A stretch of 34,514 nucleotides of DNA from the IMG/VR virus record IMGVR_UViG_3300025086_000110, positions 1-34,514 of that record. One strand, 5' to 3'. Within the stretch, counting starts at the first letter, position 1; every line of letters starts with the position of its first letter. Position numbers and translations under genes: made by a program. The notes below the pieces were generated by a model. It was not told the origin of the DNA. It saw only the letters and a list, made by a program, of their open reading frames with translations, and searched no databases. Below, in pieces: positions 1 through 34,514 of this stretch. This DNA comes from a virus.

Positions 1-127
1 TAGTAGTCAGTTTCTTTTAACAAATTATTTCTTTTTGTTCTAAGATTAGCCATAGCTCTATCTTTTGCACCAGCTTCCCAAGCCGCTTCTTCTGCGTCTC
101 TTGCTGCTTCTTCTTCTGCTGTGAGTT
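1..127. repeat. Exact 127-base direct repeat, copy 1 (copy 2 at 33,697-33,823)
   Basis: Every base from 1 to 127 matches 33,697-33,823, and the match breaks at 128/33,824. Together with the 55-base match of 763-817 to 34,460-34,514 it shows that the first 817 bases and last 818 bases are two versions of the same chaperone-plus-fibre segment. See the finding on contig ends. Confidence 0.95.
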
Positions 128-164
128 GAACTCTCTCACCATTTACCATTTTATATCTTGGCAT
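1..164 (-). CDS. Tail-assembly chaperone-like protein, 5' part, cut by the window edge
   Basis: Reads leftward from ATG at 164-162, with a strong ribosome site (AGGAGA) just upstream, and runs off the window after 54 codons, so only the N-terminal half is present. It begins MPRYKMVNGERVQLTAEEEA and is nearly the same protein as the complete 99-aa gene at 33,564-33,863. From base 1 to 127 the DNA is identical to 33,697-33,823; differences are confined to the first 12 or so codons. The full-length relative has the R-N-x-L-L-x-E-T-D-Y and Y-R-x-x-L-R-D-L-P motifs of short tail-assembly chaperones that accompany fibre genes. It follows fibre gene 202-810 by 37 bases and should be co-transcribed with it. 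Truncation is most likely an effect of where the contig starts and not a broken gene. Confidence 0.8.
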   Translation of the reverse strand, partial: MPRYKMVNGERVQLTAEEEAARDAEEAAWEAGAKDRAMANLRTKRNNLLKETDY

Positions 165-201
165 ATTGTTCTCCTTGTGTTTGTGTTAGTATCATAATTA
201 T

Positions 202-810
202 TTATAGAACTCCATACATATCTATCGTGCCTGAATCTATATTTCCTGTTGTTAGTTTAAATTGTATAGCATTAATTGCACTTGTAGTATTGAAATATCC
301 AGCACTATAATTGTTTTGTTGATATGGTCCATCAGCAACGTGGTCTGTGTTAGATATATAATGTTTTACGAATGTAGTAGATGATGGTTCAAATAAATGT
401 AAGTAACCTGACACCGAAGCATCAGAAGCACTAGCTTCCATATTATCTCCTGTAAGATAAATAAAGTCGGTTGATTGTGCGTGGTCTCTACCTGTATTAT
501 AAGTTACAATAGCTTCTCCATCATTTTCTTGGTGTGAGGCATAAAAAAATGTTGTTGTAGCAGTTACACCATAACTACTTCCACCATTTGTAGATGTTTG
601 GAATTGTAAATTAGAATTTGAAGCTGGGTGTAAATTATTGAAAACAAATATATATTCTTTATGAGTGCTAGTAAGACCTGATGTAATGCTTAAACTTGAT
701 GATGAGCTAGCTGTTGACCTTGATATAAAAACTAAATTACCAAGTCCTGTTATGCTACCAAATGCTGTTGCATCTTTTACTGCTCTGTTATTTAATTTAA
801 TTATACTCAT
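202..810 (-). CDS. Tail-fibre tip paralogue A (202 aa)
   Basis: A Ser/Thr/Asn-rich protein of the kind found at the tips of phage fibres. It has a short conserved start (MSIIKLNNRAVKDATA), then the family core: Y-I-F-x-F-N-N-x-H near residues 53-61, a variable middle (about 62-125), G-Y-L-H-L-F-E-P-S-S-x-T-F-V-K around 134-148, and a C-terminal T-G-N-I-D-S-G-T-I-x-M-Y-G-V. The same core recurs in 33,899-34,507, 810-1424 and 1411-2013, and more remotely at the C-termini of 2023-3114 and 3114-3854. The start ATG overlaps the stop of the upstream gene (TAATG at 812-808), so translation is probably coupled. It lacks the N-terminal attachment domains of its longer relatives. Receptor contact is inferred from composition and position; no catalytic motif is visible. 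Confidence 0.85.
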   Translation of the reverse strand: MSIIKLNNRAVKDATAFGSITGLGNLVFISRSTASSSSSLSITSGLTSTHKEYIFVFNNLHPASNSNLQFQTSTNGGSSYGVTATTTFFYASHQENDGEAIVTYNTGRDHAQSTDFIYLTGDNMEASASDASVSGYLHLFEPSSTTFVKHYISNTDHVADGPYQQNNYSAGYFNTTSAINAIQFKLTTGNIDSGTIDMYGVL

Positions 811-817
811 TATGATT
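763..817. repeat. Exact 55-base repeat, matching the last 55 bases of the window
   Basis: Bases 763-817 equal 34,460-34,514. They encode the first 16 residues of fibre paralogues A and B and the few bases before the start. The match begins just after two differing bases (762 versus 34,459) and continues exactly to the window end. Confidence 0.95.
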
Positions 818-1424
818 TACTCAATCCGTACATTTTAATTACTCCACTTTCTATGTCACCGCTTGTAAATTTAAAGTCTACACCATCAATAGCGGCAGTA
901 ACATTGCAATATCCAGCTACAAAATAATTACCTGTTGCGTCCCAACTCATTGCTGAATTAGTTTTTGCTATAAAATGCTTCACAAACGTATCGCTTGATG
1001 GTGAAAATAAAAATAAATCACCACAAAGAGATTGATCGTTGTCTGCACCTGATGTTGAGCCGTCCATTAATCTTTGATAACCTGTTCCTTGTGCTAAGTC
1101 ACCATCTGTTTTATAACTTCCACCAGCTTCACTATCATTTTCTGAGTGATAATAATAAACTGCTGTCGTTGTTTTAGTTGCATCAAAAGCAGATGACCCA
1201 TCTCTAAAATTTACTGTAAATTCAGAACCATCAGTTGCACCATGAATATTTATAAACTTAAATAAATAAGTATCGTATGTGCTATCAATATTAGAAGTAA
1301 AAGATGATGACGATACTCCTGATGTAATTGTGTTTGTTGTAATTAAATTTAAACCACCAGCTGGTAAGCTACCTAAAGCAGTTACACTTGAAATTGAATT
1401 GTTATTGTATTTAACTAACGCCAT
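810..1424 (-). CDS. Tail-fibre tip paralogue C (204 aa)
   Basis: Member of the same fibre-tip family, starting MALVKYNNNSISSVTALGS, with the core motifs Y-L-F-K-F-I-N-I-H, a variable middle, G-D-L-F-L-F-S-P-S-S-D-T-F-V-K-H-F-I-A, A-G-Y-C-N-V-T-A-A-I and S-G-D-I-E-S-G-V-I-K-M-Y-G. The start lies 14 bases inside the end of the upstream gene (1411-2013), and its own stop overlaps the ATG of 202-810, so three family members are packed with no gaps. It is Ser/Thr/Asp-rich with no transmembrane or signal segment, as expected for a structural tip. A role in receptor binding is inference from family position after the fibre base protein. Confidence 0.85.
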   Translation of the reverse strand: MALVKYNNNSISSVTALGSLPAGGLNLITTNTITSGVSSSSFTSNIDSTYDTYLFKFINIHGATDGSEFTVNFRDGSSAFDATKTTTAVYYYHSENDSEAGGSYKTDGDLAQGTGYQRLMDGSTSGADNDQSLCGDLFLFSPSSDTFVKHFIAKTNSAMSWDATGNYFVAGYCNVTAAIDGVDFKFTSGDIESGVIKMYGLSKS

Positions 1425-2013
1425 ATAATTTTATAACTCCACTATCCATAGTTCCTGAACTTAATTTAAATTGTACTGCGTTTACTGCACTTGTTGTATT
1501 TCCATAACCAGCGGAAAAATAATTTCCTGAGTATGCTGTTGGAAATTGTGTGTTAGCAGTTGCAATAAAATGTTTTACAAATGTTGTGTTGCTAGGGTCA
1601 AAAAGATGTAAAAATCCTGATGTAGAACCATCATCTACATTATCAATATCATAAGAAATATCTTGAAACCCTGTGCCTTGTGCTATATCACGACCAGCTT
1701 CATATCCCAAAGCTGGTGAGCCACCGCTTTCTGCGTTATAAGCTAAAAATGCAGTTGTTGTTTTTGTTACATTATAATTAGACCCACCATCAATTGACAT
1801 ATTGAAAGTTAAAGGTGCATCTGCTGATGAATGTATATTAATAAACTTAAAAATATATTCTTTGTAAGTACTGTCTATCCCGCTTGTAAAAGATAATGTT
1901 GAACTACTACTAGCTGTCTGTGTAGATATTAAATTTAATCCACCACCTGATATTGAAGCTGGTAAAGCTGTTATTGATGATAAGGAATTGTTGTTGCAAA
2001 AATTAAGAGCCAT
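1411..2013 (-). CDS. Tail-fibre tip paralogue D (200 aa)
   Basis: Starts MALNFCNNNSLSSITALPAS and carries the full family core: Y-K-E-Y-I-F-K-F-I-N-I-H, then a variable stretch with F-N-M-S-I-D-G-G-S-N-Y, then S-G-F-L-H-L-F-D-P-S-N-T-T-F-V-K-H-F-I-A, A-G-Y-G-N-T-T-S-A-V-N-A-V-Q-F-K and S-G-V-I-K-L-Y-G-V. Among the stand-alone members it looks closest to the consensus. An AGGAGT ribosome site lies just upstream of the ATG. Nine bases separate it from the longer fibre gene 2023-3114. It is probably a late virion or fibre-assembly gene; the exact attachment partner cannot be read from the sequence because the N-terminal adaptor is only about 15 residues. Confidence 0.85.
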   Translation of the reverse strand: MALNFCNNNSLSSITALPASISGGGLNLISTQTASSSSTLSFTSGIDSTYKEYIFKFINIHSSADAPLTFNMSIDGGSNYNVTKTTTAFLAYNAESGGSPALGYEAGRDIAQGTGFQDISYDIDNVDDGSTSGFLHLFDPSNTTFVKHFIATANTQFPTAYSGNYFSAGYGNTTSAVNAVQFKLSSGTMDSGVIKLYGVS

Positions 2014-2022
2014 TTTTTACTC

Positions 2023-3114
2023 CTAAGTTATTCCAAAAATTTTAAATCTACCTGATGCTATATTGCCTGTTGAAACAGTAAATTGAACTGCATTTAGTGC
2101 TGATGTAGAACCCATAAAAGAACCACCAAGAATATTTTGATGTGCGTAAGTATTAGTTTCGTGGTACTGAACTCTACCTATTATAAGTTTATGATTATTT
2201 GTGCCTAACATATCAAAAATAGTTACAAATCCTGATGTATTTTCACCTGAGGCATTTCCCATATTAGCTGGTGTAAGTTCAAATGAACTTCCGCCTGTAT
2301 TTGTATTTGTGCTAAAAGTTGTGGTATCTACTCGCAAACCAAAATTATTTCTTGCATAGTTATTTGTTTCAAAACTTGACCCATTATCATCTGATACTCT
2401 CATAAACATTAAAGTATTATCTGATCCTGTTCGCATATTTGACCAAGTAAAATGATAGTCTCTATAAGCTGAGGTGATGTAAGTATTATTAAATTCAACA
2501 GATGAAGAACTACTTGCATCTATTGTATGTAATAAAGTTTTTTGTCCACCACCAGCATCTGCAAAGTCTAATTGTCCTATTCCTGTTGTTCCTGAACCTG
2601 ATACAGATGCAACTCTTAAAAATTTTTCTGCTGTTACATTTCCTGTTGGAAATTTAAGTGTGTATGATTGATTAGCTGAATGTGCTGGAGATTGTAATTT
2701 TATTCCGTGTGAGTTCTGTTCACAATTTAATTGTAAAGCACCAGCAGTTGTTCCGTCTCCTTTTATTTGTAATCCAGCCGCAGAAGAAGTTGTTGTAAAG
2801 TTTGTTTTAGCATTTGTTACTGTGGCATCTGATGGTGTTCCAATGTCATTAACATTACCAAGTAATAAAATAAAATCTATAACATCACCTGTTGCTAAGT
2901 TTGATGCAAAAGTAATTGTTGAACCTGATATTGTAAAAGAACTTCCTGGTTTTTGTAATACACCATTAAGAGATACAAGCATATGATTTGCAGACTCAGG
3001 TGATACGTTTGCAGATGATACTTGCATAGTGTAAGCCGCTTGACCATTGACTACACTAATTGCATCACAAACTTGAAAGTTACCTGATATTGGTGGGTTG
3101 CCTATATATGCCAT
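2023..3114 (-). CDS. Tail fibre protein with N-terminal adaptor and paralogous tip (363 aa)
   Basis: Residues 1-100 form an adaptor of a type common in marine phage fibres (MAYIGNPPISGNFQVCDAIS, then V-L-Q-K-P-G-S-S-F-T-I-S-G and G-D-V-I-D-F-I). A middle section (about 105-190) is rich in short Thr/Ala/Gly segments with I-K-G-D-G-T-T-A-G-A-L-Q-L-N. The C-terminal third (from about 195) is a divergent copy of the fibre-tip core: Y-R-D-Y-H-F-T-W-S-N-M, S-G-F-V-T-I-F-D, A-L-N-A-V-Q-F and S-T-G-N-I-A-S-G-R-F-K-I-F-G. Its start overlaps the last base of the gene before it (3114). So one tip family is carried here on a long adaptor, while three downstream genes are tips alone. Confidence 0.85.
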   Translation of the reverse strand: MAYIGNPPISGNFQVCDAISVVNGQAAYTMQVSSANVSPESANHMLVSLNGVLQKPGSSFTISGSTITFASNLATGDVIDFILLLGNVNDIGTPSDATVTNAKTNFTTTSSAAGLQIKGDGTTAGALQLNCEQNSHGIKLQSPAHSANQSYTLKFPTGNVTAEKFLRVASVSGSGTTGIGQLDFADAGGGQKTLLHTIDASSSSSVEFNNTYITSAYRDYHFTWSNMRTGSDNTLMFMRVSDDNGSSFETNNYARNNFGLRVDTTTFSTNTNTGGSSFELTPANMGNASGENTSGFVTIFDMLGTNNHKLIIGRVQYHETNTYAHQNILGGSFMGSTSALNAVQFTVSTGNIASGRFKIFGIT

Positions 3115-3854
3115 TAACTATGTTTCCTCCCATATAACGAAAATTTACCTGATGATATATTACCTGATGATAAAAAAAATCTCATACCAGTTTGATTATA
3201 ATCAGATCCTACTCCGTGATTACTATAGCCAGCACCAGTTACCACACCAGCTTCACCAGCCGCATTAGAATATCCTGTTTTATAATGAACCCAAGTCCAG
3301 TCAGCTGTGTTATGTGGATTGAAAAGAGTTACTTCTGAATGTGCCGCTTCTTGTGAAGCATTACCAATTGCTCTACTTAAACGTATTTTATCATCTGAAC
3401 CTGAACTATCTGTTGATTTATCGCCAGTATCTCTACCAACAAGTGTCCATTGATAAACATTGTTTGCTGCTATATCAGAACCACCTGATGCTGCTTCAAA
3501 AAATCTAAGATCAAGTACAGCACTATCTGTTGCAACGTGCAGATCATCAATGACAACACAAAAATCAGTAAAATCTGATGATAAACTTGTAAAATCAACT
3601 TGTGCTACTGCACTTGATACAGTAGTTTGAGAAATAAAAGTCCACATACCACCACCTTTTAAATGAGAAAAATCTACTCTCTTTAAAGTTCCAGCATCTG
3701 AAACTAATAACTCATCTGTGTCTGCTGGTGTTGCACCTAAAGCAGTAAATCCTGAAATTGCTGTATCACCTATTTTATCTGCTGTTACTACATCATCAGC
3801 TAGGTCGCTTGATGTAACAACTTTCGGTGCTGGTTGTTGTCCTATATAACCCAC
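3114..3854 (-). CDS. Tail fibre protein with a different adaptor and paralogous tip (246 aa)
   Basis: The N-terminus (MGYIGQQPAPKVVTSSDLAD, followed by D-V-V-T-A-D-K-I-G-D-T-A-I) is a segment often seen in marine phage fibres. A short linker (S-D-A-G-T-L-K-R-V-D-F) leads to a C-terminal domain from about residue 70 that is the most remote copy of the fibre-tip core, ending S-S-G-N-I-S-S-G-K-F-S-L-Y-G-R. The ATG is preceded by AGGAGT. It lies directly after the conserved 121-aa structural gene and shares one base with the next fibre gene. Swapping of tips between adaptors is inferred by comparing this protein with 2023-3114. Confidence 0.82.
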   Translation of the reverse strand: MGYIGQQPAPKVVTSSDLADDVVTADKIGDTAISGFTALGATPADTDELLVSDAGTLKRVDFSHLKGGGMWTFISQTTVSSAVAQVDFTSLSSDFTDFCVVIDDLHVATDSAVLDLRFFEAASGGSDIAANNVYQWTLVGRDTGDKSTDSSGSDDKIRLSRAIGNASQEAAHSEVTLFNPHNTADWTWVHYKTGYSNAAGEAGVVTGAGYSNHGVGSDYNQTGMRFFLSSGNISSGKFSLYGRKHS

Positions 3855-3863
3855 TTAAAACTC

Positions 3864-4229
3864 CTATGTTATTTCCATGACTGACAGTGTGCCTGAAACT
3901 TTATCAGCAACTGAGCAATCGATTTGAATTTTGTCACCAGCTTCTAAAATAACTTTAGAACCTGATAAAATTTCTAATGAACTTCCTGTTGGTATGGTTA
4001 CATCCTTGACTAAAAAAGATGTTCCATTAGCAACATTGTTTGCACCACCTCTATTTGCTGTTGTACTAACGTGTTCTACTTCAACTGTTACTGCTGCTGT
4101 ATGAATGTTAGCTAATACAAGACCAAGAACTACAGTTGTTGTACTTCCTGCTGCTGTGTACATCACGTAAGGTGTTCCAGCTGAAGCTGGTTCTGCTGCG
4201 AAGTTGATTGCTTTAAAAGTATTTGCCAT
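3864..4229 (-). CDS. Conserved virion-associated protein (121 aa)
   Basis: A small beta-rich protein of a type I recall from many marine phages next to fibre genes. It has V-V-L-G-L-V-L-A-N-I-H near residues 33-43 and a C-terminal G-S-K-V-I-L-E-A-G-D-K-I-Q-I followed by L-S-V-M-E-I-T. The L-E-x-G-D-x-I element suggests a jelly-roll-like or Ig-like strand pattern. A strong ribosome site (GAGGAGATATAA) precedes the ATG. It sits between the fibre base and the fibre-tip array, so a tail or fibre structural role is likely, but no precise function can be assigned. Confidence 0.75.
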   Translation of the reverse strand: MANTFKAINFAAEPASAGTPYVMYTAAGSTTTVVLGLVLANIHTAAVTVEVEHVSTTANRGGANNVANGTSFLVKDVTIPTGSSLEILSGSKVILEAGDKIQIDCSVADKVSGTLSVMEIT

Positions 4230-4254: not shown

Positions 4255-5460
4255 TTATCCTAATGCTATTGCAAGAGCTGTTGGATCGTCAGTTACAGCT
4301 ATGGTTACTGTATCTGTTGCACTACCTGTCGTGGTAATACCTGATCCTGCAGCGATTGTTAGTGTGTTTCCGTTTGAAATAGTTTGACTTGAACCGCTTG
4401 ACCCTGCAACAGTAAAGCTCGTCATACCACTATCTATTTCTACAAAAGAACTTCCGTTAAATACACGAAGTCTATTCGTGCTAGTATTAAAATATAAATC
4501 ACCTGTGGTTAAGGCATCACCATCATTGTCTACTGATGGGTCTGAAGATTTTGATCCTAAATAAGTATCATCAAAAGCATCAGCACTCGCTGCCGCTGCT
4601 GTGGCACTAGCTGCTGCTGCAGTTGCAGAACTCGCTGCATTAGTTGCTTGTGTCGATGCAGTGGATGCAGATGTAGAAGCATTGGATGCTTGAGTGGATG
4701 CTGAAGAAGCTGAACTTGCTGCGGCTGTAGCCGAACTAGCTGCTGCGGTTGCAGATGTAGCCGCTTCACTAGCTTTTGTCGTTGCTGTAGCAGCATCGAC
4801 TAATAAATCATATTTTGATGCGTTGGCATTTGTTGTTAATGGTTCTGAGCCTGAAGATGTATGAGCTGTATTAATCATGAAGATATTGTTTGTCGATGTA
4901 TCTTTAACAATATCTCTTACAACATAAGCTGTACCAGCAGACCAATTACCTTTGTTAGCACCAATTTCTGATGTAACATTTAATTCACCTGCACTATCAA
5001 ATCCTAAAACTTTACCAGCTCTATCTGTTGCAGAGTTTGTAAACTCTGTTGAGGTCATCGTGTTTGTTCTTGATAATTTAATCGATCTATCTAACTCTTC
5101 TTGAACTTGTTGAAGAGTCATCATAGCACGATCCAAACCCTCTTCGTGTGATTCCGCAGGGAATGGATCATTGGCGATATAATCAATCGCCTGTGTTTGC
5201 GGAACTGCTCTTCTCAACACAACTGTTTCACCTGAAGCAGGTATATTTCCTGATGTGAAAGTAACGCTTCCACCATTTGAGTTTCCTGCACCAGCCACTG
5301 TATAATGCGTGGTGATTGTTTTAACAGTCTCAATGCCTGTTGATGATCTTATGATAACCTGTAAGTCAGAGTCCGCAAAAATTTTAAATGTATAATTAAA
5401 GGCAGTTGTTGAGCCATTGCCTGAATATGAATTTTTTACTGTAACCGAAGATATTGTCAT
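4255..5460 (-). CDS. T7-type tail fibre base protein (401 aa)
   Basis: Residues 1-135 match the N-terminal virion-attachment domain of T7 gp17-like fibres: the Y-S-G-N-G-S-T-T-A-F-N-Y start, V-V-L-R-R-A-V-P-Q-T-Q, D-Y-I-A-N-D-P-F-P-A-E-S-H-E-x-x-L-D and a helical T-L-Q-Q-V-Q-E-E-L-D-R-S. Residues 215-290 are an almost pure Ala/Ser/Thr stretch with regular small-residue spacing, a predicted triple coiled coil. Residues 300-345 hold a short domain with G-D-L-Y-F-N-T-S-T-N-R-L-R-V-F. It ends without a receptor-binding domain, which fits a base to which separately encoded tips attach. It shares its ATG base with the stop of the 1155-aa protein. Confidence 0.9.
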   Translation of the reverse strand: MTISSVTVKNSYSGNGSTTAFNYTFKIFADSDLQVIIRSSTGIETVKTITTHYTVAGAGNSNGGSVTFTSGNIPASGETVVLRRAVPQTQAIDYIANDPFPAESHEEGLDRAMMTLQQVQEELDRSIKLSRTNTMTSTEFTNSATDRAGKVLGFDSAGELNVTSEIGANKGNWSAGTAYVVRDIVKDTSTNNIFMINTAHTSSGSEPLTTNANASKYDLLVDAATATTKASEAATSATAAASSATAAASSASSASTQASNASTSASTASTQATNAASSATAAAASATAAAASADAFDDTYLGSKSSDPSVDNDGDALTTGDLYFNTSTNRLRVFNGSSFVEIDSGMTSFTVAGSSGSSQTISNGNTLTIAAGSGITTTGSATDTVTIAVTDDPTALAIALG

Positions 5461-26218: not shown

Positions 26219-26323
26219 AAATCCTTTCTGTTGATAGGTTCTATTACCAAAAAAGTTATGCACAATCAAGGGTTATTTAGGTATAGACATAGTGGAAAAC
26301 TAGGTATATATAGAAAGAAAACA
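26219..26323. promoter_or_regulatory. Divergent control region between Cro-like and exonuclease genes
   Basis: The leftward promoter is well formed: TTGATT (bases 26,269-26,264 on that strand) and TAATAG (26,246-26,241) with a 17-base spacer, starting about 15 bases before the Cro-like ribosome site. Rightward, TAGACA (26,284-26,289) and TATATA (26,307-26,312) are 17 apart but leave a very short leader before ATG 26,324, so the true rightward start may lie elsewhere. The related segments TAGGTATAGACATAG and TAGGTATATATAG may be operator half-sites. Confidence 0.6.
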
Positions 26324-27218: not shown

Positions 27219-27551
27219 GTGAGTAAGATAATTGATATAAAATTATATCATGTAAAAAATAAAATAAATCTTTTAAAAGTAGTTTCTTCTACATTAAAAG
27301 AAAAAGGAACTGTTCATTGTTTAAAACATATAGAAGTTTTAATTGAAAAACTTTTGATTGATAAAGATAAATTAAAAAAAAAACAAGACTCAAAAGAATC
27401 TATCAAAAGATTAAATTCTATAGGTTGTTCAACGGCTATCATAAGCAATACAAGAGCTAGTGAATACCAAGAACCTATCAATAAACTAGCATATAGAGTG
27501 GTAGACAAAGCTAAATTTTTAAGAAGAAAGGGGTTTGTAAATGAAAGATAA
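27219..27551 (+). CDS. Helical hypothetical protein (110 aa)
   Basis: GTG start at 27,219, just after a GGGGG ribosome site at the end of the exonuclease gene. The sequence is Lys/Leu/Ile-rich and helical (V-L-I-E-K-L-L-I-D-K-D-K-L-K-K-K) with I-G-C-S-T-A-I-I-S-N-T-R-A-S-E-Y near the centre. It overlaps the annealing-protein start by 11 bases, which ties it to the recombination module. No domain recognised. Confidence 0.6.
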   Translation: MSKIIDIKLYHVKNKINLLKVVSSTLKEKGTVHCLKHIEVLIEKLLIDKDKLKKKQDSKESIKRLNSIGCSTAIISNTRASEYQEPINKLAYRVVDKAKFLRRKGFVNER

Positions 27552-28149
27552 AATAGATAGAGTAAATGAGTTATGCAGAAGAGACGGAGTATATAAAAAC
27601 CTTACAACAGGTCAGACAACTGTTTCTTTGTGGAGCAAGATAAAATATTTTAGACAAGTCTTTGGTGATCAACTTGGGTTTGATGTATCAGTTATGGAAC
27701 AAGAAGATTATTACATTGCTAAGTGCAAGATCATCGCTTATGATCCTGAACGAGTGTTAGCTACAGGACATTATAAACAATTTAAAAAGAGAAACGGCAG
27801 CTACATACAAGGTGCTTTGCCTATGGCAGAAAGTTTCTCTATTTCACGAGCTTTAAGTTTTCTTGGTGTGTTGGATAAAGACATTACCTCCCTCGAAGAG
27901 TTAGAATCTTTAGGTATACCAACCACCAAGGAAGCTAAAGACACCCTAAGTACAAAGGGTGTACCCGTCAAACAAATCGTAGAGGAGTTAAAGAAAGCTC
28001 CACATGAAACAAGATTAAATCATCTTCGTTATCATGTGTATAGACCTACATTTGTTGAGACACAAAAAAATCATCCAAGAGATTTTAAATTGCTAGACAA
28101 TGCTTTCAAATCTAGGATGAACTTAATAACTAAACAGGAGAAAATATAA
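27541..28149 (+). CDS. Single-strand annealing protein, Rad52/ERF-like (202 aa)
   Basis: Follows an AAGAAAGGGG ribosome site. Residues 30-112 hold the core: W-S-K-I-K-Y-F-R-Q-V-F-G-D, a strand region I-A-K-C-K-I-I-A-Y-D-P-E-R-V-L-A-T-G-H-Y, and A-L-P-M-A-E-S-F-S-I-S-R-A-L-S-F-L-G, which matches the A-x-x-x-x-E-x-x-x-x-x-R-A-L-x-F-L-G signature of ERF/Rad52-like annealing proteins. C-terminal part (about 125-200) is helical and basic. It should anneal strands exposed by the exonuclease, supporting concatemer formation and recombination among related phages. Confidence 0.78.
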   Translation: MKDKIDRVNELCRRDGVYKNLTTGQTTVSLWSKIKYFRQVFGDQLGFDVSVMEQEDYYIAKCKIIAYDPERVLATGHYKQFKKRNGSYIQGALPMAESFSISRALSFLGVLDKDITSLEELESLGIPTTKEAKDTLSTKGVPVKQIVEELKKAPHETRLNHLRYHVYRPTFVETQKNHPRDFKLLDNAFKSRMNLITKQEKI

Positions 28150-29166: not shown

Positions 29167-29709
29167 ATGCACTTTGAAATAATAGATAAGAAAAAAAAAC
29201 AAATTAAGCTAGGCATGAAAGCTATCATGTATAGAGAACTATCACCAAGAGAACTACAGATATACAGAACAGGATTTAAAAATGGCTATCGTATGGCAGA
29301 AGCTCATCTTGTTTTTAAAAGCCAACAACTAGCAGATAGAATGAAGATGAAAGATGATCGTGAACAAATAAAAAAAAGAGTAGATGATAAACATCCTGTT
29401 GGCTATGAAACATTTAGTAATATTGTTAGAGTTGTAGCTAATCATTTTTGTATTAGTCCTCAAGAAGTTTATAGTAGAAGAAGGTTAGCTTATATTGTAA
29501 AGCCGAGAAGTGTTATTATAAATTATTGCCTGGAACATTTTAATATATCAACACCAAAGCTAGGAATGTTTTTTAATTTTGATCACTCAACTGTCATTCA
29601 TCATAGAAGGCAGAAAGTAAAGCAAGTTGGTATATGGAAACCTTTAGAATTAGTTTGGCAAGACTATGAAAAAATTAAAAAGGAATTAGTTAAGTCCTTG
29701 CGTAGTTAG
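29167..29709 (+). CDS. DnaA domain-IV-like DNA-binding protein (180 aa)
   Basis: Residues 80-150 match the C-terminal DNA-binding domain of bacterial DnaA: V-V-A-N-H-F-C-I-S-P-Q-E-V-Y-S-R-R-R, then V-K-P-R-S-V-I-I-N-Y-C-L-E-H-F and the signature F-D-H-S-T-V-I-H-H-R-R at about 138-148. There is no AAA+ ATPase domain. The first 75 residues are basic and helical. It could bind DnaA boxes to start phage replication with host enzymes or to block host initiation. It lies at the end of the rightward replication run, overlapping the convergent gene by 20 bases. Confidence 0.8.
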   Translation: MHFEIIDKKKKQIKLGMKAIMYRELSPRELQIYRTGFKNGYRMAEAHLVFKSQQLADRMKMKDDREQIKKRVDDKHPVGYETFSNIVRVVANHFCISPQEVYSRRRLAYIVKPRSVIINYCLEHFNISTPKLGMFFNFDHSTVIHHRRQKVKQVGIWKPLELVWQDYEKIKKELVKSLRS

Positions 29710-33563: not shown

Positions 33564-33863
33564 CTAGGGTTTTGTTGGAAAGGTAACAGCATCAACATCA
33601 GCAGCTGTTGCGTCATCAGCCACAGTACCAGGCAAGTCTCTCAACTCCTGTCTGTAAGTTGTCATCGCATCAGTCATTGTAACATCAGATAAAGCATAGT
33701 AGTCAGTTTCTTTTAACAAATTATTTCTTTTTGTTCTAAGATTAGCCATAGCTCTATCTTTTGCACCAGCTTCCCAAGCCGCTTCTTCTGCGTCTCTTGC
33801 TGCTTCTTCTTCTGCTGTGAGTTTGATTCTCTCACCATTTACCATTTTATATCTATCTGCCAT
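33564..33863 (-). CDS. Tail-assembly chaperone-like protein (99 aa)
   Basis: Complete version of the gene cut off at the left edge. It starts MADRYKMVNGERIKLTAEEE after AAGGAGTAA, has a helical E-E-A-A-R-D-A-E-E-A-A-W-E-A-G centre, then R-N-N-L-L-K-E-T-D-Y-Y-A-L-S-D and T-Y-R-Q-E-L-R-D-L-P-G-T and ends F-P-T-K-P. The R-N-x-L-L-x-x-T-D ... Y-R-Q-x-L-R-D-L-P signature is that of short phage tail-assembly chaperones (Phage_tail_APC type). It is paired with the fibre gene immediately upstream. Confidence 0.85.
   Translation of the reverse strand: MADRYKMVNGERIKLTAEEEAARDAEEAAWEAGAKDRAMANLRTKRNNLLKETDYYALSDVTMTDAMTTYRQELRDLPGTVADDATAADVDAVTFPTKP
33697..33823. repeat. Exact 127-base direct repeat, copy 2
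   Basis: Identical to bases 1-127. It covers the conserved body of the chaperone gene. Beyond it the two versions diverge through the chaperone start and most of the fibre gene. Confidence 0.95.
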
Positions 33864-33898
33864 ATTTACTCCTTATTGTTGTTTGTTATCATAATTAT

Positions 33899-34507
33899 TT
33901 ATAAAACTCCATACATATCTACTGTACCTGAATCTATGTTTCCTGAACTAAATTTAAAATCTAAAGCTGTTATTGGAGCTGTCGTATTAAAATATCCACC
34001 TACAGAATCATCTTGTGCGTGGTTATCTTCATTATTACCACTTGTTCTTGCAATAAAATTTTTTACAAACACAGAACTTGATGGTTCAAAAAGATGTAAA
34101 AAGCCAGAAACACAAGCATCATTATCATTACTTACTTGATATGTAAGAGGTTGATAATCTGTACTTTGTGCTAAATCATAAGAACTTTTATATGACAACC
34201 CTGTTTCTGAGTCACTTTCGCTATGGTAAGCATCAAAAAATGTAGTTGTTTTTGTTATATTATACGAATGACTTGAGGAATCATCAGACCCATTAAAACT
34301 AAATACAACATTATCTGTTGCTGGGTGTATATTATTAAAAAAAAATATATACTCTTTATAGGTGCTATCTATACCTGATGTAATGCTTAAACTTGATGAT
34401 GAACTAGCAGTTGATCTTGATATAAATTTTAAATTACCTAGTCCTGTTATGCTACCTACTGCTGTTGCATCTTTTACTGCTCTGTTATTTAATTTAATTA
34501 TACTCAT
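33899..34507 (-). CDS. Tail-fibre tip paralogue B (202 aa), alternative version of 202-810
   Basis: Same length as paralogue A and the same start up to residue 16 (MSIIKLNNRAVKDATA) and end (S-G-N-I-D-S-G-T-V-D-M-Y-G-V-L). In between, residues about 65-125 and 150-170 differ strongly: for example F-S-F-N-G-S-D-D-S-S-S-H-S-Y replaces the A version. The shared scaffold Y-I-F-F-F-N-N-I-H, S-G-F-L-H-L-F-E-P-S-S-S-V-F-V-K-N-F-I-A-R is kept. Variation limited to surface-type loops is what receptor choice would select. It is followed by its own chaperone gene, as A is. Confidence 0.85.
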   Translation of the reverse strand: MSIIKLNNRAVKDATAVGSITGLGNLKFISRSTASSSSSLSITSGIDSTYKEYIFFFNNIHPATDNVVFSFNGSDDSSSHSYNITKTTTFFDAYHSESDSETGLSYKSSYDLAQSTDYQPLTYQVSNDNDACVSGFLHLFEPSSSVFVKNFIARTSGNNEDNHAQDDSVGGYFNTTAPITALDFKFSSGNIDSGTVDMYGVL

Positions 34508-34514
34508 TATGATT

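Follow-up and report, generated by a model that had tools for sequence, protein, structure and literature searches.

The complete IMG/VR virus record IMGVR_UViG_3300025086_000110, analyzed here over its full 34,514 bases (the window), carries three consecutive genes, P1, P2, and P3, that are best explained as the three addressed parts of one set at the fibre tip, which would probably assemble as a heterotrimer, with heads exchanged as cassettes between genomes. This account seems probable, if far from assured. The genes lie on the minus strand, as do the other genes of the fibre region. P1 (1411–2013, 200 amino acids), assigned to slot 1 by its N terminus, overlaps P2 (810–1424, 204 amino acids), assigned to slot 2 in the same way, by 14 nucleotides. 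P2 in turn overlaps the slot-3 gene P3 (202–810, 202 amino acids) by 1 nucleotide. Directly after slot 3 comes a gene for a 99-amino-acid tail-assembly chaperone (33564–33863), which matches PF16778 (Phage_tail_APC) at 44.4 bits against a cut-off of 26.6 and phrog_4912, a tail fiber assembly family.

In the proposed mechanism, P1, P2, and P3 would be co-translated, obligate subunits of one tip set. A slot-specific address (about residues 1–60) and a C-terminal strand would put each subunit in place, most likely in a heterotrimer at the end of the tail fibre, with folding alongside the chaperone encoded next. The remainder of each protein, a lectin-like beta-sandwich, would form the head that touches the surface of the host; receptor binding is suggested by its fold, gene neighbours, and variability. 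Homologous recombination in conserved blocks flanking the head would swap heads as cassettes, mostly between co-infecting genomes and also between slots, giving each phage its own three-head combination. Judged from the genes, this looks like a three-slot set with exchangeable heads, more than a loose array of paralogues, and a heterotrimer is strongly suggested.

Copy number and slot order

Across related genomes the slot order is fixed and copies come in multiples of three. A comparison of order, gain, and loss had been proposed by the original prediction, a reading of the window from its sequence alone, and it bears out a structured set. For this comparison 259 loci (given L numbers below) were pooled, found by likeness to the phrog_14820-type family. 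An array was taken as complete when it had more than 400 nucleotides upstream and a chaperone gene within 200 nucleotides downstream, and arrays cut by contig ends were dropped. Before dereplication there were 164 complete arrays: 140 had three genes and 21 had six, with single arrays of seven, five, and four. Dereplication at 90% DNA identity over 80% leaves 123, namely 106 of three genes, 14 of six, L252 with seven hits that represent six genes (one frameshifted), L032 with five, and L185 with four. With the broken-copy six-gene array L252 included, 121 of the 123 are multiples of three.

This count applies a gene-length limit. A looser threshold (121 clusters) mixed in the longer Q genes described below, or broken copies, and from these sources also gave some arrays of 4, 7, and 8. 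The count replaces a rougher first one of 88 arrays (64 of three, 13 of six, 11 others), in which most of the others began 104–169 nucleotides from a contig edge; an earlier pass with slightly different rules had kept 165 of 266 groups.

The genes stand in the order 1-2-3 in 101 of the 123 arrays and a1-a2-a3-1-2-3 in 14. Of the remaining eight, five have three genes but divergent N termini, and the others are L032, L185, and L252. Spacing is similarly regular: over an earlier collection of arrays, not dereplicated, the gap is −14 nucleotides at 97 of 123 junctions after slot 1 and −1 nucleotide at 104 of 141 after slot 2. A chaperone-family gene interrupts none of 295 internal array junctions, and 11 arrays have a further one upstream, in most of them just behind a lone fibre gene. 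Because arrays were selected for a chaperone gene downstream, its presence after slot 3 is not counted as evidence. Four groups complete on the left have more than 600 nucleotides downstream and no chaperone gene: L171 and L173, which hold three copies, L046, an upstream single copy, and L257, with two. L257 was dropped as an exception; its contig looks chimeric, with a pyruvate-kinase-like frame directly upstream (a name read from the sequence by eye, with no search behind it).

A heterotrimer is favoured here because separate homotrimers, one per gene, would not be expected to lock the count to three. That alternative, in which each slot protein forms a homotrimer at its own attachment point and the virion bears three separate tips, is a possible arrangement, if an unlikely one. 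Phage fibre tips are usually homotrimers, and the T4 gp37 and A-1(L) fibres are described as trimers of one protein; slot-specific N termini would fit distinct docking sites equally well. Independent tips should nevertheless be gained and lost singly, which is at odds with 121 of 123 arrays being multiples of three. The six-gene arrays repeat whole triplets in order, and there is one chaperone gene per triplet and none within. The earlier suggestion that the virion carries a mixed set of tips thus gains indirect support, since it fits the fixed slots, the multiples of three, the N-terminal addresses, and the lectin-like fold.

Several loci show arrangements of their own. L032 (745–3747) reads P1-P2-hybrid-P2-P3, where the hybrid starts like slot 3 and ends like slot 1. 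Two arrays crossing over unequally could produce such a gene, as could an assembly join. In L185 (2053–4601) the first two of four genes have unusual N termini, and a 202-amino-acid gene directly upstream looks fibre-like. L199 (8–2821) has head-family copies, then a remote fibre copy and a chaperone gene, then another triplet, apparently two separated sets. More distant arrays of three copies plus a chaperone gene occur in a metagenome-assembled genome labelled Campylobacteraceae (L258, 7111–9285) and a SAR11-labelled genome (L259, 8630–10881), where they lie behind different fibre genes and carry other N-terminal address types.

Protein family and predicted fold

P1, P2, and P3 are close paralogues by sequence. 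Together with P3B, a second version of P3 discussed below, they match phrog_14820, a family of unknown function, over positions 1 to 205 or 206 of its 206, with E-values from 4e-67 (P2) through 3e-68 (P3) to 5e-79 (P1). The likeness is far above chance, so the shared core that had been noticed by eye in 202–810, 810–1424, and 1411–2013 marks a real family. Upstream, Q2 (2023–3114, 363 amino acids) and Q1 (3114–3854, 246 amino acids) hold remote copies at their C termini, as had also been proposed: phrog_14820 matches Q2 at residues 188–362 (E 9e-15) and Q1 at residues 65–242 (E 7e-7). Q2 additionally matches phrog_18673, a tail fiber family, at residues 1–127. The description of the genes as joined without gaps holds within the close array, with its 14- and 1-nucleotide overlaps. 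Pfam gave no match to the tip proteins, and a sequence search of PDB with the family profile returned 0 matches at E ≤ 1.

AlphaFold2 predicts P1 as a compact beta-sandwich from residue 24 on, with a predicted local distance difference test score (pLDDT) of 90.9 and a poorly placed N terminus. A structural aligner (VIA) places the model near GH32 C-terminal domains, galectins, and ERGIC-53 at Z 6–8.1. The PDB fold matches listed are lectin-like, although a fold beyond that list may also match (a gp37-like needle was considered). Against BFVD, 106 entries match the model at E ≤ 0.001, and fibre-like proteins are among them several times. For Q2, too, a sandwich is predicted at the C terminus, with the same strand order as the head, so the two members modelled agree, against the differing folds that would have refuted the original prediction.

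The family annotation, unknown function only, would allow these proteins to be other virion decorations or secreted lectins, not fibre tips. This is improbable, given that the genes sit between fibre genes and a Phage_tail_APC chaperone gene and that the same domain forms the C terminus of Q1 and Q2 and recurs in the fibre-like BFVD matches.

Slot addresses and head exchange

Slot identity sits in residues 1–60 and weakly in the C terminus, and the middle of the protein, which makes up most of the predicted sandwich, carries almost no slot signal. The N terminus (residues 1–60) calls the slot correctly in 399 of 402 copies with the copy's own locus left out. When 318 copies in three-gene arrays are each matched to their closest sequence at a different locus, the slot agrees for 99% of them in alignment columns 1–40, for 44–60% in 30-column windows between 61 and 190 (chance is about one third), and for 84% in the final 30 columns. 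Between loci, identity averages 0.646 within a slot versus 0.442 between slots at the N terminus, and 0.473 versus 0.465 in the middle. Slot labels change 6 times on the N-terminal tree (359 rows), versus a shuffled mean of 170 and minimum of 148. On the middle tree (360 rows) they change 130 times, versus a shuffled mean of 171.

The exchangeable head corresponds by residue mapping to about residues 65–177 of P1 (about 1483–1821); it spans about residues 66–179 of P2 (about 888–1229) and about residues 65–179 of P3 (about 274–618). The evidence points to exchange of these heads as cassettes from one genome to another, and across slots as well. When the heads of 588 distinct proteins are clustered at 85% identity or above, 98 clusters draw on two or more loci; 13 of these mix slots, and 13 others hold one slot of both triplet types. 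Where two triplets share at least one head at 85%, 45 of 48 pairs have an unrelated head (<65%) in another slot, and 39 of 48 share only one. In 206 same-slot pairs whose N termini reach an identity of at least 0.95, the heads have a median of only 0.51, which indicates that heads were replaced and did not slowly diverge. Seven cross-slot DNA pairs, picked from the top of the list, show 27–80% identity in the first ~180 nucleotides, then mostly 80–100% with lower patches, and lower identity near the end; their longest exact runs are 21–66 nucleotides.

Two other sources of this pattern were considered. Saturation is rejected where near-identical heads occupy different slots and by the near-identical N termini paired with diverged heads, though it could contribute to the general fading of the slot signal. 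As the source of cross-slot heads, chimeric assemblies are unlikely though still conceivable, given that exact runs in the seven pairs are shorter than k=127.

As for the route, no reverse transcriptase (RVT_1, PF00078) matched in the record, so a retroelement is rejected, and searches found no tyrosine integrase; the likeliest route would then be homologous recombination within the conserved blocks on either side of the head. As to a phage-encoded recombinase, the gene at 26231–27217 matches genes annotated as putative nucleases in relatives, and that at 27541–28149 had no match in the phage collection, which gives no support for a single-strand annealing partner of the nuclease.

Recombination between members within one genome, for which the array had been suggested as a store, is a different matter: exchange is real, but it appears to run between genomes. 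Within one locus the top head identity is 0.65 (717 pairs), which gives no hint of intragenomic conversion, although very recent conversions could be masked by short-read assembly breaks. A silent cassette store, with one member used and the others serving as donors, would accommodate heads that recombine, across slots too. It is very improbable, because all three genes are intact and overlapping, each with its own conserved address, because no head pair in a locus exceeds that level of identity, and because it leaves the rule of three unexplained.

An exchange at slot 3 can be seen in the window itself. The gene at 33899–34507 (P3B; head about 33971–34312) had been taken as a further paralogue, which is wrong: it is a second allele of P3 at overlapping contig ends. 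The earlier figure of five or six members holds for three close and two remote copies, and the sixth is the alternative allele. Window positions 1–817 align end to end with 33697–34514. The first 127 nucleotides (1–127 and 33697–33823) are identical, the gene middle is about 57–68% identical, and the gene start is near-identical again; 1–167 is accordingly a redundant copy of the 5′ part of the chaperone gene. The largest k-mer commonly used by metaSPAdes, and usual in such assemblies, is k=127, and an exact shared prefix of that length is expected where two paths part in a de Bruijn graph with this k.

Two other loci separate the alleles. L059, from another dataset, runs contiguously through the fibre genes, P1, P2, the 33899–34507 version, and the chaperone gene, without the allele at 202–810 (P3A); it matches the window at 99.6% over 5239 nucleotides, P3 mismatches counted in. 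L120 is 100% identical to window 8810–5 and has P3A, also present in L007, without P3B. Compared in 200-nucleotide steps, L059 and L120 agree fully to the end of P2, apart from two mismatches in a single step; one and the same phage thus occurs with either of two P3 heads. The P3B head is closest to heads in slot 3 of L087 (0.67) and in slot 2 of L022 and L009 (0.66). That P3B is a true fourth close gene, born by tandem duplication of the chaperone start and P3, is scarcely credible: the window alone cannot decide, since the contig breaks off at the overlap on both sides, but the exact 127-nucleotide prefix, the L059 junction of P2 to P3B without P3A, the converse in L120, and the triplet-plus-chaperone rule in relatives all speak against it. 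Population variation can in this way make one gene pass for an extra paralogue at contig ends.

Going one step further, the tip may be a combinatorial adhesin, a heterotrimer of three address-tagged subunits whose interchangeable lectin-like heads come from a population-wide pool; the chances of this seem evenly balanced. Phages would then assort heads independently over three (or six) slots, and the P3 swap would be one such step.

Several observations weigh against the addressed three-slot set. L032 and L185 depart from the rule of three, the counted arrays are restricted by the upstream and downstream requirements and come from loci found by family likeness, and metagenome assemblies can be chimeric. 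The small slot difference in the middle is significant by permutation (0.0077, standard deviation 0.0003), and the 130 changes on the middle tree fall below the shuffled minimum of 159. This residual signal suggests that some slot preference is left, so that head and slot are not fully independent. For the fold, the P1 model has no PDB match at E ≤ 0.001 (Foldseek gives an E-value no better than 2e-3), and Z-scores of 6–8.1 can also mean merely a common strand arrangement, so that lectin-like denotes a fold class and not a function.

Genomic setting and known systems

By its sequence, the window virus is an HTVC010P-type pelagiphage, presumably a phage of ocean SAR11-type bacteria. Over window 1–25000, DNA likeness covers 44% to HTVC034P and 38% to HTVC010P, each at ~79% identity, in a shared head and tail module. 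Portal (head–tail adaptor), capsid, tail proteins, internal virion proteins, terminase, and endolysin were recognized in the window with PHROGs. Of those window proteins that were scanned, none was recognized as a DNA polymerase, and 29167–29709 encodes a protein with a DnaA C-terminal DNA-binding domain (PF08299). The main tail fibre gene (4255–5460, 401 amino acids) has a tail-protein-like N terminus (phrog_13893 at residues 1–161; phrog_1640, a tail protein family, at 1–126), an Ala/Ser-rich middle, and no head-domain match. Between it and the array lies a small gene (3864–4229) with weak phrog matches, whose same-position counterpart is annotated as a virion structural protein in HTVC010P, HTVC034P, and HTVC019P.

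Cultured relatives, the Pelagibacter phages, grow on SAR11 strains, and the host link of the window virus is indirect. A further indirect link is L256 (41–4338), a phage-like contig with a related triplet in the SAR11 single-cell assembly AG-439-N16 (Pelagibacteraceae). Besides the triplet it holds two lone fibre genes, and a separate chaperone-family gene stands behind each of the three units.

HTVC010P, HTVC034P, and HTVC019P likewise have a run of three followed by a chaperone gene, with the copies annotated as hypothetical proteins. The P3 of the window is only 48–54% identical to its best match in these phages, and HTVC019P belongs to the Autographiviridae, so the three-gene set crosses phage groups. 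HTVC010P relatives are reported to rank among the abundant phages of the ocean (PMC6487183, PMC10504331); parts of these phages that would serve host recognition are still annotated as hypothetical.

Within the openly licensed PubMed Central texts, as far as these were searched, no account of the triplet or of head exchange was found; the closest, and a direct precedent for a heterotrimer, is that of Dishui Lake virophage 2 (DSLV2; PMC12724248). There, three consecutive tail proteins are reported to form a heterotrimer, from modelling, co-purification, and electron microscopy; the genes are related, encode about 200 amino acids each, and are conserved as a triplet in relatives. As with P1-P2-P3, three consecutive paralogues are kept as a set, although the complex proposed here is read from genes. 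DSLV2 differs in being a virophage with a T4 gp37-like needle fold, and slot addresses, exchange of heads, and counts in multiples of three do not come up in the part of its account consulted.

Variability in pelagiphage host recognition is itself known (PMC3909814, PMC10504331, PMC6487183). Metaviromic islands, as described by Mizuno et al. (2014, PMC3909814), contain host-recognition genes, pelagiphage ones included, that vary within populations; slot structure, a copy-number rule, and cassette exchange between paralogues do not figure in the portion of that account consulted. Diversity-generating retroelements (PMC10743442, again from a partial text) likewise produce variable lectin-like receptor-binding proteins, but they do so by point hypermutation with a reverse transcriptase, whereas in the window family whole heads are exchanged. 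If the account given here is true, a rule of three combined with fixed addresses and movable heads would explain host-recognition variation in small phages without a retroelement or an invertase.

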